Origin: Streptomyces albofaciens JCM 4342
GTDB taxonomy: Bacteria; Actinomycetota; Actinomycetes; Streptomycetales; Streptomycetaceae
Assembly: GCF_008634025.1 (NCBI RefSeq)
Contig: NZ_PDCM01000002.1
Location: 1,984,001 to 2,048,000 of the forward strand
Length of the DNA stretch: 64,000 bases
Direction of reading: 5' to 3'
Part shown: piece by piece, positions 14,615-25,641 of the stretch
How the letters are laid out: each line of letters begins with the position of its first letter
Numbering within the stretch: position 1 is the first letter of the stretch
Translations under genes and position numbers: made by a program
The notes under the pieces: model-generated
Databases searched by the model: none
What the model was told of the DNA's origin: nothing
Seen by the model: the letters and a program-made list of their open reading frames with translations, nothing else

Positions 14615-14720
14615 CGGACGGTGTACCAGGCGCTGATGGATCGGACGGTGTATCAGATGCTGACGGGTTGAACGGTGTCAGGTGCTGACGGGTCGGGCGG
14701 TGTGTCAGGTGCTGACGGTG
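14615..14720. repeat. Degenerate tandem repeat running into the darcynin stop codon
   Basis: Four units of 24-28 bp (14615-14641, 14642-14669, 14670-14693, 14694-14720) share the core GGTGTNNCAGGTGCTGACGG. The last unit contains the stop codon and final codons of the leftward darcynin gene, so the first three look like decayed copies of that gene's 3' end. Confidence 0.75.
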
Positions 14721-15076
14721 GCGACGGGGTCGACGTTGTAGGTACGGGCGTAGCCGTTCTCGGTGCCGACGAGGAGGTCGACAATCTCGAAGTAGCGGTC
14801 CCAGAACGGGGTTTCGCGCAGCGCGTCGATGAGGAGCTGGTAGGCCTCGTGGTCGTCGGCCTCCCAGACCCAGACGTCGGTGACGCGGGTGGAGTAGAAC
14901 TCCGTGTCGTAGAAGCGGGACCGTACGCCGGTCGTCTTCGCCTTGACCACGGACATGACCTCGGTGTCGAGCGCGTGCACGCGCTCCTCGGGAGTCATGG
15001 CGAGCCACTCGGGCATGGTCTTGATCAGCATGAAGGCGGTGACCGGCGGCGCGGTTTCCGCCACGGATGCGGACAT
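14705..15076 (-). CDS. Darcynin family protein
   Basis: A 123-residue cytoplasmic protein resembling the darcynin family, with [37 protein letters not shown] and [14 protein letters not shown]. It probably forms a small dimeric alpha/beta-barrel sheet; the biochemical role is unknown. It is divergent from a LysR regulator gene, which often marks the regulator's target. A perfect palindrome lies between the two starts. The last codons are part of a tandem repeat that continues past the stop. Confidence 0.82.
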
Positions 15077-17984: not shown

Positions 17985-18137
17985 CGTTCGCGTATGGAGA
18001 TCGGCGTCCGCACTCGGTGGCACGCGCCGTCGCAAGCTCAAATCATCCTCTGAACCCGTCTGCTCCGGGGTTGGTTCCGGACCGGCGGGGCGATGACTAC
18101 CCAACACCACGGGGGTGCACGAATGGGAGGGGGAACC

Positions 18138-19580
18138 ATGGAACATCTCGGTACGGGCATCGGCTGGCGGCCCGAGATCGCCGACGGGGTGGCGGAGCTG
18201 CCCGGCGTGGACTGGGTGGAGGTCGTCGCCGAGAACATCTGTCCCGGTCATCTCCCGCCCGCCTTGCGGGCGCTGCGCGAGCGGGGCACGACGGTCGTGC
18301 CGCACGGCGTCTCGCTCGGGCTCGGCGGCGCCGAACGCCCGGACCCGGCCCGGCTGGCCGCGCTCGCGGAACGCGCCGAGGCGCTGGGCGCGCCGCTGGT
18401 CACCGAGCACATCGCGTTCGTACGGGCCGGGGGCCCGCTGACCGCCTCCCCCGCGATGGAGGCGGGGCACCTGCTGCCCGTGCCCCGGACCCGCGACGCG
18501 CTGGACGTGCTCTGCGAGAACATCCGCATCGCGCAGGACGCGCTGCCCGTGCCGCTCGCCGTGGAGAACATCGCGGCGCTGATCGCCTGGCCCGACGAGG
18601 AGATGACCGAGGGCCGGTTCCTCGCCGAACTGGTCGAGCGCACCGGTGTACGGCTGCTCATCGATGTCGCCAACCTCCACACCAATCAGGTGAACCGGAA
18701 CGAGGACCCGGCCACGGCACTGGACGAGCTGCCGGTCGAGGCCATCGCGTATGTGCACGTGGCGGGCGGCATCGAACGGGACGGCGTCTGGCACGACACC
18801 CACGCCCACCCGGTGACCCGCCCCGTCCTGGACGTACTGGCCGAACTCTGCGCCCGCACCACCCCTCCCGGCGTCCTCCTGGAGCGCGACGAGAACTTCC
18901 CGGCGACCGGCGAACTCGCCGCGGAGCTGGACATGATCCGCGCGGTGGTGCGGGAGGCCCCGGCGGTTCCGGTACGCCGGGGGTCCGGGCCCGCACCGGA
19001 GCCCGTGAGGGAAGGCGACCCGGCCACCGCCCCGGCCACGGCCACCGGCCAGGCCTCAGCCGCTGCCCCGGCCACGGCCACGGCCATCGGCCAGAACACA
19101 GCCGCCGCCCCGCCCCTGGCCACAGCCGACGCCCTGGCCACGGCCACCGCCCCGGCCACGGCCACCGCGCCCGCCCGGCAGCGCCTGGCCGTCGCGCAGG
19201 CCGCGCTGCTCTCCGCGCTGGTGGCCGGGACACCGGCGCCGGAGGGCTTCGACCGGCGGCGGCTGCTCGTGCAGAGCCGGGCCCTGGCCGACAAGCGGGC
19301 CTCCGTGGTCGCCAAGGTCGCGCCCGAGCTGCCGGGCATCCTCGGCGCGGACTACCGGCCCGGCTTCCTCGGTTACGCGCGCCACCGGCCCATGAAGGGC
19401 GGCTACCGCCAGGACGCCATGGACTTCGCCGTCCACCTGCTGGCAGACAACCGGCCCACCGACCCGGACGCGCGCCAACAGCTGACGCAGTGGTGGCGGG
19501 ACCGCTCCGGGCCGAAACCACCGGGCAGGCCCGCGAACCGGCTCGTCCGCGCCGCACGGCTCGCCCTGGGCCGGAGGTGA
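18138..19580 (+). CDS. DUF692 (MNIO) oxidase with fused C-terminal domain
   Basis: A 480-residue protein. Residues 1-275 form a DUF692 TIM barrel, the multinuclear non-heme iron oxidase family that includes MbnB, TglH and BufB. The conserved metal-ligand segments are all there: PHGVSLGLG (H56), TEHIAF (E90, H91), VENIAAL (E143, N144), IDVANLHTN (D176, N179), YVHVAGG (H207), DTHAH (D220, H222) and LLERDEN (E249). An Ala/Thr/Pro-rich linker (about 285-350) joins a helical C-terminal domain (350-470) seen in SCO6045-like proteins. The ATG at 18138 has AGGGGG upstream. Its last codons contain the ribosome site of the next gene, so the two are translationally linked. Confidence 0.9.
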
Positions 19581-19585
19581 TCAAC

Positions 19586-20635
19586 ATGCTCGCGCTCCTC
19601 GTGACCCTGGTGATCGCCGCCTCCTCGCTGCTGCTCGTCGTCCGTACCGTCCGCGTCGTCCGTGCGACCCCCCGGCCCAAGCGCCGCAAGACCACACACG
19701 AACTCTGGGAGATCGCCTTCCTCGCCGGCGGCCCCGCCCGGGTCGCGGACGCCGCGATAGCCGGTATGCACCAGGACGGCCGGCTCGCCGTGGGCGGGCC
19801 CGGTGTGGTGTCCGTGCGGCAGGCGGTGGCGTACGACCCGGTCGAGACGGCCGTGCTGGACTCGCTGGCGCGGACTCCGGACGGCGCGCTGGCCACCCTG
19901 CGCCGCCACGTCATGCGGGCCCCCGCCGTCCAGGCCATCGGCGACCGGCTGGCGAAGCGCGGTCTGATGCGGCACCCGCGCACCGGGCGCCCCTGGCGGC
20001 TGTACGCCGCCTGGCAGACCGGGATCTGCATCGCGGGCTTCCTGCTCGTCCTCCTCTTCACCTTGACGGGCGCCCTCATCGGCGCGAACGGAGAGACCCC
20101 CTTCGTCATCCGGGTCCTGCCCGCGGCTCTCCTCGGCACCGTGGCCGGCGCGGTGTGCCGGAAGGTCCTGGGGCGGCGGGTGACGCAGGCCGGTGTCTCG
20201 GCGGTACGCACGTTCCGTACGGCGCACAAGGCGGAGCTGGTGAGCGACGCGACCCAGTCCGCCGCGCTGCTCGTGGCGCTCGGCGGCACCGCGCTGCTCG
20301 TGGACGAGGTGCTGCGCGACCATCTCACCGAGGCGCAGCACTCGATGGCGGGTGCGTCGGCGGCGCCGTACTCCGGGTCCTCGTCCACCACGTCGACCGG
20401 CTCTTCGACCGGCTCGTCGACCGCGAGCTGCGGCTGGAACGTGCCGGACGACAGCTCGGACACGGCCTGGTGCGGGTCGTCGTGCGGCGGCGGGTCGGGG
20501 TCGGGGTGCGGCAGTTCGTCGTGCGGCGGTGGCGGGTCGTCGTGCGGTGGCGGGTCGTCGTGCGGCAGCTCCGGGTCCAGCTGCGGCAGCAGTTCCTCTT
20601 CCTGCGGCGGCGGTGGCGGCTGCGGGGGCAGCTGA
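19586..20635 (+). CDS. TIGR04222-type membrane protein with Ser/Gly/Cys tail
   Basis: 349 residues. One N-terminal transmembrane helix (2-19) is followed by a basic stretch and a soluble winged-helix-like TIGR04222 domain (about 35-130). A hairpin of two membrane helices follows (about 148-165 and 172-190), then a helical segment to 250. The last 100 residues are nearly all Ser, Gly and Cys. The final 70 carry ten cysteines (282, 296, 300, 308, 313, 320, 326, 333, 340, 346), every one followed by Gly. GGAGGTGATC sits before the ATG, 5 bp after the DUF692 stop. I infer that the tail is the substrate of the adjacent DUF692 enzyme. Confidence 0.85.
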   Translation: MLALLVTLVIAASSLLLVVRTVRVVRATPRPKRRKTTHELWEIAFLAGGPARVADAAIAGMHQDGRLAVGGPGVVSVRQAVAYDPVETAVLDSLARTPDGALATLRRHVMRAPAVQAIGDRLAKRGLMRHPRTGRPWRLYAAWQTGICIAGFLLVLLFTLTGALIGANGETPFVIRVLPAALLGTVAGAVCRKVLGRRVTQAGVSAVRTFRTAHKAELVSDATQSAALLVALGGTALLVDEVLRDHLTEAQHSMAGASAAPYSGSSSTTSTGSSTGSSTASCGWNVPDDSSDTAWCGSSCGGGSGSGCGSSSCGGGGSSCGGGSSCGSSGSSCGSSSSSCGGGGGCGGS

Positions 20636-20842: not shown

Positions 20843-21796
20843 ATGCGATCCGTAACCGGCACCGGCCTCGTCGTCACCGCGCTCGCCGCGACCCTGGCCG
20901 CGCTGCTCTTCCCGATCTGGTCGTTCGCCGGCAGACCGGGTCCGGACGGGGGCGTCGACACCCAGACCGTCGCGACCTCGTTCGGCCCGCTGTCCGCGCT
21001 CGACCGTGACTTCGTCAACCGCGTACGCCTGGCGGGCCTGTGGGAGCTGCCCGCGGGCCAGCAGGCCCAGGAGCGCGGGACCGTGCAGTCCGTACGGGAG
21101 GCGGGCACCCATCTCGTCGAGGGGCACGCCTCGCTCGACCGGCACGTACGCGAGGTGGCGGCGCAGCTCGGTCTCGCGCTGCCCGACCGGCCCAACGCCC
21201 AGCAGCAGCAGTGGCTGGCCGAGCTGAGCGCCGCGCGCGGGGCGGCGTACGACCGGAAGTTCGCGAACATCCTGCGGCTCGCGCACGGCAAGGTCTTCAC
21301 CCTCGTCGCGCAGGTGCGCGCCACCACCCGCAACGCGCTCGTGCGCGGTCTGGCCGACGACGCCAACCGCACCGTCCTGGACCACATTTCCGTCCTGGAG
21401 CGGACCGGGTTCGTCGACTTCGACGCGATCGCCGAGGACGCGGCCACCTCCTCCCCGCCGCCCAGCCCCTCGGCCCCGCCGCCGTCCCTGGACGCGCCGG
21501 CCGCGTCACCGTCGCCCGTCACCCCGTCAGCGACGTATCCCCTGCCTCCGCCCGCGACGCCACCCGCCACCGCCACCGGGAGCCCGGAATCCGGCCGCTC
21601 CCCGGCGGCCGGTGTCAACACCCCCGAGAAGACGGGAAGAAGTGACCGCCCATGTCCGACCCACGGCACTCCGCGAGCCCACAACCTCCGCCAAGCCCCC
21701 GCCCCTCGCCACCTCCCCGGCCCTCGCCACCCGTCCCGAAACCCCCGCAGTCCCCTCGCCACCGGCGCCGGCTCGGCGCCCGGCACCTCGTGCTGA
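20843..21796 (+). CDS. DUF4142 exported protein
   Basis: A 317-residue protein with an N-terminal hydrophobic signal or anchor (residues 7-28). A DUF4142 helical bundle (about 45-190) resembles a ferritin-like fold: LSALDRDFVNRVRLAGLWE, GHASLDRHVREVAAQLG and YDRKFANILRLAHGK. A Pro/Ser/Thr-rich region follows. The reading frame runs 145 bp into the next gene. Its last 50 residues (after GVNTPEKTGR) have an out-of-frame look and rare AGA/AGT codons. A shift of frame in the low-complexity region would instead reach a TGA at 21643-21645, 7 bp before the next ATG. This is either a true overlap or a frameshift or sequencing error. Confidence 0.8.
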   Translation: MRSVTGTGLVVTALAATLAALLFPIWSFAGRPGPDGGVDTQTVATSFGPLSALDRDFVNRVRLAGLWELPAGQQAQERGTVQSVREAGTHLVEGHASLDRHVREVAAQLGLALPDRPNAQQQQWLAELSAARGAAYDRKFANILRLAHGKVFTLVAQVRATTRNALVRGLADDANRTVLDHISVLERTGFVDFDAIAEDAATSSPPPSPSAPPPSLDAPAASPSPVTPSATYPLPPPATPPATATGSPESGRSPAAGVNTPEKTGRSDRPCPTHGTPRAHNLRQAPAPRHLPGPRHPSRNPRSPLATGAGSAPGTSC

Positions 21797-24912: not shown

Positions 24913-25641
24913 TCAGGCCAGCCCGGCGACCAGCTCGGCGACCGGCTTGCGGCGGCCGGTGTAGAACGGCACCTCCTCGCGGACGTGCATCCGCGCCTCG
25001 GAGCCGCGCAGGTGGCGCATGAGGTCGACGATGCGGTACAGCTCGTCGGCCTCGAAGGCGAGGATCCACTCGTAGTCGCCCAGCGAGAAGGAGGGCACCG
25101 TGTTGGCGCGCACGTCCGGGAAGCCGCGGGCCATCTTGCCGTGGTCGGCGAGCATCCGGCGGCGGTCCTCGTCGGGGAGCAGGTACCAGTCGTAGGACCG
25201 CACGAAGGGGTAGACGCTCACGTACTCGCGGGCGACCTCGTCGGCCAGGAAGGCCGGGATGTGCGACTTGTTGAACTCGGCCGGGCGGTGCAGCGCCATG
25301 TTCGACCACACCGGCTCCAGCGCGCGGCCGAGCTTCGTGCGGCGGAAGAGGTTGTACGCCTCCTGGAGCGCGTCGGAGCTCTCCGAGTGCCACCAGATCA
25401 TCACGTCGGCGTCGGCGCGCAGACCGGAGACGTCGTAGGTGCCGCGCACCACGACGTCCTTGGCGGCGAGCTGCGCGAACAGCGTCTCGACCTCGTCGGC
25501 GTAGCCGGTGCGGTCCTCGGGCAGCACGTCGCGCAGCTTGAACACCGACCAGAGTGTGTAGCGGATGACCTCGTTCAGGTCCTTCGCCTTCTTGCCGGCG
25601 TTCGGGGTCTTCTCGGGAGCGGGGGCGGAAGCGTCAGTCAT
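24913..25641 (-). CDS. hemQ: Coproheme decarboxylase HemQ (ChdC)
   Basis: A 242-residue cytoplasmic enzyme of the chlorite-dismutase superfamily. It converts Fe-coproporphyrin III to haem b using hydrogen peroxide, the last step of the coproporphyrin-dependent route of Gram-positive bacteria. The proximal haem ligand is H167 in ADHGKMAR, and the [10 protein letters not shown] segment supplies the substrate-side tyrosines. The family's usual N-terminal half ([20 protein letters not shown]) is intact. It sits 10 bp downstream of hemY on the same strand and is surely co-transcribed. Confidence 0.95.

Follow-up and report, generated by a model that had tools for sequence, protein, structure and literature searches.

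In Streptomyces albofaciens JCM 4342, a stretch of 64,000 nucleotides (contig NZ_PDCM01000002.1, positions 1,984,001 to 2,048,000; hereafter the window) contains a gene for an MNIO (DUF692) enzyme followed directly by a gene for a TIGR04222 membrane protein with a Cys-rich C-terminal tail. Our preferred reading, held tentatively and with slightly less than even confidence, is that the two genes form a modification system in which a fusion of the MNIO with a partner protein would modify the Cys residues of a cytosolic tail, giving a membrane-tethered metal ligand or redox buffer. The core of this pairing has already been published as a prediction: in the passages covered here, Antoine et al. 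2025 proposed from mined clusters that the Cys-containing C-terminal tails of TIGR04222 proteins are MNIO substrates (PMC12452194). The present analysis adds (i) a probable fused helper, (ii) a coupled tail of S-C-G units predicted to face inward, (iii) an upstream element, and (iv) the retention of the MNIO in loci without the tail. An earlier note on this DNA had stated that no experimental description of the pair was known; our literature search likewise retrieved no experimental study of an MNIO-TIGR04222 pair, and nothing on PF26136 (the family of relatives of the MNIO C-terminal domain) or related names, but the same pairing had already been proposed in the article cited above. The gene pair, family identities, linkage, spacing, and Cys context were computed here. 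The features of the pair, all on the + strand, are as follows.

18138..19580, + strand: MNIO/DUF692 enzyme with C-terminal partner-like domain (P0001, 480 amino acids)
18153..18950, + strand: MNIO TIM-barrel catalytic domain, residues 6-271 (PF05114; aligned to 3bww, TglH, and MbnB)
18951..19169, + strand: Ala/Thr/Pro-rich linker, about residues 272-344 (from sequence)
19170..19577, + strand: C-terminal helical domain, residues 345-480 (PF26136 in database relatives), probable fused MNIO partner
19573..19582, + strand: Shine-Dalgarno-like GGAGGTGATC, overlapping the MNIO stop codon (from sequence)
19586..20635, + strand: TIGR04222 membrane protein (P0002, 349 amino acids; profile score, 136.2 bits; cut-off, 43)
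20363..20632, + strand: disordered Ser/Gly tail, residues 260-349, with ten Cys (282-346), each before Gly (pLDDT mostly below 50)

The MNIO stop codon occupies positions 19578-19580 and the TIGR04222 ATG lies at 19586, leaving 5 bp between the genes; the coordinates, reading frames, and gap given in the earlier note were all correct. The 9.25-Mb genome contains one match to the MNIO family and one to TIGR04222, and these two are neighbors. Among the matches listed, the nearest relatives of the MNIO are Streptomyces proteins with 86% identity (S. griseoflavus and S. rimosus), and the nearest relative of the membrane protein is from S. rimosus (90% over 85% of the length). A chance or wrong reading frame was ruled out, since relatives share the ligand residues and 64 of 139 loci encode a Cys tail.

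These 139 MNIO loci comprise the window, 58 fetched stretches, and 80 named genome records; the latter are the best 80 of 288 relatives, and the set is hence biased to close Streptomyces. A few strains are present in both locus sets (e.g., L130/L240 and L148/L184), and the loci are not independent, tail loss being concentrated in one supported clade. Sixty-four loci carry a Cys-tailed TIGR04222 gene, 43 only a tail-less one, and 22 none by profile, and 10 end at a contig edge without TIGR04222. The Streptomyces-trained profile missed the distant loci L120, L123, and L124, which are counted as "none" in this tally; by the NCBI model they have TIGR04222 proteins with Cys tails. Loci L125 to L127 hold other MNIO types, and L120 to L127 were left out of the tree and of the analyses of spacing and of the ratio of nonsynonymous to synonymous substitutions (dN/dS). 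The remaining 131 Streptomyces-type loci comprise 62 tailed, 43 tail-less, 16 without TIGR04222, and 10 contig-edge cases.

The catalytic domain matches PF05114 over residues 6-271 with 269.8 bits (cut-off, 25). All eleven residues named in the earlier note, namely, H56, E90, H91, E143, N144, D176, N179, H207, D220, H222, and E249, carry the stated letter in the window MNIO. The iron-ligand positions are kept in 63/63 tailed and 43/43 tail-less loci, except N144 (62/63 tailed); in the 21 loci without profile-detected TIGR04222, distant ones included, E90 and N144 are present in 19 and E249 in 20. The earlier note was right about the domain, these residues, and the tail; it had missed that the protein has a second domain (about residues 345-480) and that D251 (18888-18890) is the likely catalytic base. 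D251 is kept in 63/63 tailed loci, 43/43 tail-less loci, and 20/21 loci without TIGR04222. Via the ERD motif it likely corresponds to Asp249 of FonB (the alignment is to 3bww, and the FonB match is our own reading), which in the passages covered is the proposed base of the 5-thiooxazole-forming FonBC (PMC12668002). The position following the FonB base is described there as a selectivity site, occupied by Phe or Asp; in our loci the position after D251 is mostly E or D. The window MNIO scores 184.2 bits against the BufB equivalog NF050167, below its cut-off of 310, and 28 bits against the MbnB model (cut-off, 325).

The C-terminal domain is probably a partner protein fused to the MNIO, because a separate gene for it lies beside the MNIO in 25 of the 139 loci, some of which could be frameshifts or assembly errors. 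It is fused to the MNIO in 109 loci, and the 5 without a match are two contig ends and three other MNIO types. The window domain has no Pfam match, and its relative P0248 matches DUF2063 (PF09836) at an E value of 0.055. In a profile-profile comparison with hhalign, the domain aligned to DUF2063 with an E value of 0.0089 over 90 columns, versus 0.03 over 19 columns for the best of 24 decoys. MbnC was the best VIA row for the domain, and TglI and NGO1945 were not among the matches listed. A search of the PDB with its sequence profile gave nothing convincing (best E value, 0.031), and Foldseek with the models of both window proteins gave no match at an E value below 0.001. Judged by its length, the domain probably cannot accommodate a complete RRE. 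For HvfB, which depends on HvfC, joining the two proteins by engineering gave higher activity than coexpressing them (PMC13419390).

The ten-Cys tail described in the earlier note was confirmed, with Cys at residues 282-346 of 349 and thus within the last 68 residues. Ten Cys in the 89 residues from position 261 on have a probability of 9e-9 at an assumed Cys background of 0.9%. Tail lists and Cys-context statistics exclude L214, L245, and open reading frames still open at a contig end. The 60 distinct tails contain 454 Cys, of which 452 are followed by a small residue (Gly, 300; Ser, 123; Ala, 29) and 2 by Asp, and Cys-Cys is absent. Relative to shuffles of all residues other than Cys, whose positions were kept, Cys-Gly is enriched (300 observed versus 238 ± 9 expected), as is Ser-Cys (249 versus 154 ± 8). 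FonBC, in the passages covered, prefers a small residue following Cys, and 5-thiooxazole is described there as having a band near 305 nm (PMC12668002).

The two families are strongly linked. Among 296 Actinomycetota genomes, the MNIO is found in 19, TIGR04222 over the cut-off in 15, and both in 14 (Fisher P, 5e-19), with 38 genomes that have only sub-cut-off TIGR04222 matches left uncounted; in all 14, the two domains lie within about 2.1 kb of each other. The one genome with TIGR04222 but no MNIO (G013) is assembled in 960 contigs, and its TIGR04222 match lies at the end of one of them. The earlier note had named genome-wide co-occurrence of the MNIO with Cys-tailed TIGR04222 proteins as support for its reading: 14 of the 15 TIGR04222 genomes indeed carry the MNIO, whereas the tail is present in just 8 of the 14 linked neighbors (3 to 10 Cys) and 6 are tail-less. 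The linkage is therefore to the TIGR04222 family and not to the tail alone. In 121 Streptomyces genomes, the MNIO is found in 115 and TIGR04222 over the cut-off in 106. Tail genes without any MNIO, which the note had taken as a refutation if frequent, were also looked for: three of the 121 genomes have TIGR04222 without a detected MNIO, two of them tail-less (G338 and G388) and one (G385, in 1420 contigs) with a 3-Cys tail.

Spacing separates tailed from tail-less genes. The distance from the stop codon of the MNIO (or partner) gene to the first TIGR04222 domain, whose start was extrapolated from the profile match instead of being set at the start codon, is at most 60 bp in 59/60 tailed versus 5/44 tail-less cases; its median in the tail-less cases is 988 bp. 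Three of the five close tail-less cases (L171, L205, and L246) sit at a contig end or close to one, and another (L214) has a split reading frame, which leaves L193 as the one genuine case. The coupled gene is therefore nearly always the tailed one. This close spacing speaks against the improbable alternative, to which we give the least weight, that the tail Cys bind metal or form disulfides unmodified while the MNIO acts elsewhere and the genes are merely coregulated. In its favor, some orphan TIGR04222 paralogues (L303, L309, L310, L311, L317, and L318; 2 to 5 Cys), whose fetched stretches contain no MNIO, have Ser/Gly-rich Cys tails as well, and Antoine et al. 2025, in the passages covered, count 490 of 1372 TIGR04222 genomes without MNIO (PMC12452194); the orphan tails are, however, short, mostly with at most 3 Cys (5 in L311).

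A one-to-one system of MNIO and tail is disfavored by the retention of the MNIO without a Cys-tailed neighbor, which, like the tail-less linked neighbors, weighs against our reading. (i) In 59 of the 131 Streptomyces-type loci, with 10 more at contig edges, the MNIO has only a tail-less TIGR04222 gene or none beside it, and its ligands are almost always intact (in 43/43 of the tail-less loci for the named residues). (ii) Ten of the 11 MNIO-bearing genomes searched, with all candidates scored, have no TIGR04222 at an E value of 0.001 (G023, G182, G315, G336, and G392, in 1 to 110 contigs, and five in 540 to 1300 contigs); G367, the remaining one, has a single match below the cut-off. (iii) The median pairwise dN/dS (pairs with dS of 0.1 to 1.5) is 0.135 for tail-less loci, 0.196 for tailed loci, and 0.189 for loci without TIGR04222. 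(iv) The tree contains one supported clade (99/96; bootstrap not settled) of 55 rows, namely, 37 tail-less, 9 without TIGR04222, 4 tailed, and 5 ungrouped. Since the MNIO is retained without the tail or without TIGR04222, it probably has another substrate in these species. It is possible, although we consider it somewhat doubtful, that in Streptomyces the MNIO chiefly modifies some other protein or peptide that is widely kept, and that the Cys-tailed TIGR04222 protein, which comes and goes, is an accessory substrate or a mere neighbor. The presence of the MNIO in 115/121 Streptomyces genomes, its intact residues and lower dN/dS without the tail, and an upstream element that is retained with and without the tail (see below) agree with this; the close spacing of the tailed gene and the nonrandom Ser-Cys and Cys-Gly context do not. 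Nor was an alternative Cys-rich precursor recognized near the tail-less MNIOs, in a limited look at the flanks alone in which the first open reading frame scan was mostly wrong-frame noise. Among the small Cys-rich genes of a refined gene map, the one singled out as recurrent encodes a zinc-ribbon-like protein of 62 amino acids with 6 Cys. It was rejected as precursor and taken as neighborhood, since in the 15/61 loci that have it, its distance is about 3 kb and its strand varies.

The membrane protein has three predicted transmembrane segments (TM1 to TM3) and no Pfam match, and it does not resemble the bufferin and captophorin precursors, which are small, have DUF2282, Buf_6/12_Cys, or EGKCG-type sequence, and carry a Sec signal peptide (no dedicated signal-peptide program was used here). 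The remaining features, assigned from the AlphaFold2 (AF2) model together with hydrophobicity or charge, are as follows.

19589..19666, + strand: TM1, residues 2-27 (AF2 model, hydrophobicity)
19703..19975, + strand: two winged-helix-like units, residues 40-130, predicted cytosolic (AF2 secondary structure by eye, DUF2207_C match, charge)
19976..20173, + strand: TM2-loop-TM3 hairpin, residues 131-196 (AF2 model, hydrophobicity)
20186..20362, + strand: helices after TM3, residues 201-259, predicted cytosolic (AF2 model, charge)

The TIGR04222 core was compared with DUF2207_C (PF20990; 20 proteins in the profile) and GPP34/GOLPH3 (PF05719; 10 proteins). The similarity to DUF2207_C is clear (hhalign probability, 92; E value, 6.5e-7; best of 24 decoys, 0.032), so that the sequence profiles indicate that the two families are related; single TIGR04222 proteins match PF20990 weakly (9/87; best E value, 0.023). 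The similarity to GPP34 is weak, and membership in that family was rejected. The sequence profile of the membrane protein retrieved from the PDB mainly matches to the low-complexity tail and nothing convincing. In 87/87 proteins, Lys plus Arg (K+R) are concentrated in the three domain-side flanks (mean, 12.2, versus 0.1 in the TM2-TM3 loop plus N terminus), which are about four times longer in all. A cytosolic tail is thus favored as a prediction, because of the positive-inside charge, the predicted helices, and the kinship to DUF2207_C. The "surface polymer" of the earlier note is unsupported on the same grounds, while its broader picture of an intact-looking MNIO beside a Cys-tailed neighbor is supported. 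Export of the tail, with modification before or during export and an extracytoplasmic membrane-bound metal ligand as the product, is the published proposal and comes close to that note; we regard it as unlikely. In the passages covered, the tails are predicted to be periplasmic from TM topology, and bufferins are exported by Sec (PMC12452194). Export would also gain from a candidate fourth segment, which has a dG of 1.0 in the window protein and of 0.2 to 1.2 in L121, L123, and L124; however, its family median is 4.9 versus 0.3 for TM3, K+R averages 5.9 after TM3 and 3.1 in the linker to the tail, and the AF2 model has no TM-length helix at 226-233.

We infer the role of the partner, the placement of the tail in the cytosol, the modification of the Cys and its chemistry, and metal binding by the product. 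In the preferred modification system, the first gene would encode an MNIO oxidase joined through a flexible linker to a PME/DUF2063-like partner domain, and the second, coupled gene a protein with three TM segments, of which both the folded domain and the Cys tail would lie in the cytosol. The fusion would act from the cytosol on the tail, S-C-G unit by S-C-G unit, converting some or all Cys into thiooxazole- or oxazolone/thioamide-type heterocycles. The product, tethered to the membrane and facing the cytosol, would serve as a ligand for metal (most likely copper) or as a redox buffer; it would be neither a released peptide nor a surface polymer. A more specific version, which we put forward as speculation and consider rather unlikely, dispenses with a leader peptide and a separate recognition protein: the winged-helix, DUF2207/GPP34-like domain would dock the enzyme, and the row of S-C-G units would become a fixed array of metal-binding heterocycles at the inner membrane face. 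If the tail is cytosolic, the MNIO would act in place on a membrane-tethered protein, and we know of no such case, although no dedicated search was made. If the partner is fused, the enzyme would be a single protein and should be easy to test. The presence of the MNIO in 115/121 Streptomyces genomes, many without the Cys tail, makes a second substrate a direct question. In the passages covered, PMC12452194 does not settle if TIGR04222 proteins undergo modification in the absence of a partner gene, or by what means; a fused partner, if real, would answer this for 109/139 loci.

A conserved element lies upstream of the pair.

18034..18055, + strand: conserved element AA[CG]CTCAAATNNNSCTCTGAA[CG], putative operator or promoter (near-invariant, 20 bp)

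Its core is exact at 18037-18054, and no other match occurs in the window at up to 3 mismatches, where chance would give 0.35. The element is found 93 to 216 bp 5' of the MNIO domain in 110/137 loci (115/137 with a looser core), and these loci have no second copy at up to 1 mismatch. It is kept with and without the Cys tail and missing from the distant and most divergent loci. A Zur-box pattern gave no match, and a literature search on its letters gave nothing related, as judged by titles. S. coelicolor SCO6045, which gave PF26136 its name and may be the ortholog of the window MNIO, is listed with values of 1.59 and 3.01 in an RNA-Seq table on the redox-sensing HbpS-SenS-SenR system (PMC4991794, passages covered).

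Several neighboring genes recur. A DUF4142 gene (20843-21796) lies directly downstream of the pair, and DUF4142 is near the MNIO in many loci, on either side. A peptidyl-tRNA hydrolase gene (PTH2, PF01981; 13717-14541) lies about 3.6 kb upstream of the MNIO, and a PTH2-like gene adjoins the MNIO in 31/61 mapped loci. The window also contains a chlorite-dismutase/HemQ-type gene on the minus strand (24913-25641); such genes are near the MNIO in 43/61 mapped loci, and protoporphyrinogen oxidase-like genes in 39/61 (names assigned by eye). A Darcynin-family protein (14705-15076; PF17074, 201 bits) is encoded beside a LysR regulator.

Among known systems, MbnB-MbnC consists of an MNIO and a helical partner (a probable one in the window), and the window MNIO shares the ERDENF motif with MbnB; the MbnB-MbnC substrate is a short precursor peptide. 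BufB-BufC, HvfB-HvfC, and FonB-FonC (bufferin, oxazolin, and captophorin systems) combine an MNIO and a DUF2063-type partner with Cys substrates and, in the passages covered, function in copper handling. Their precursors have Sec signal peptides, whereas the candidate substrate here is a three-TM protein, and their partners are free-standing PME-type 1 proteins that include an RRE domain, whereas the partner-like domain of the window is short and fused. Closest are the pairs of Antoine et al. 2025, with the same families and the same substrate proposal (PMC12452194). In the passages covered, TIGR04222 follows the MNIO in >10% of cases, partner genes are apparently missing from many TIGR04222-MNIO clusters, and MNIO-nitroreductase fusions, but no MNIO-partner fusion, are mentioned. 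A peptidyl-tRNA hydrolase-type neighbor is common to both, of family PF01195 there and PF01981 in the window. The two descriptions differ in that those pairs have a tail predicted to be periplasmic and often no partner gene, whereas here a partner-like domain is fused to the enzyme and a cytosolic tail is favored.
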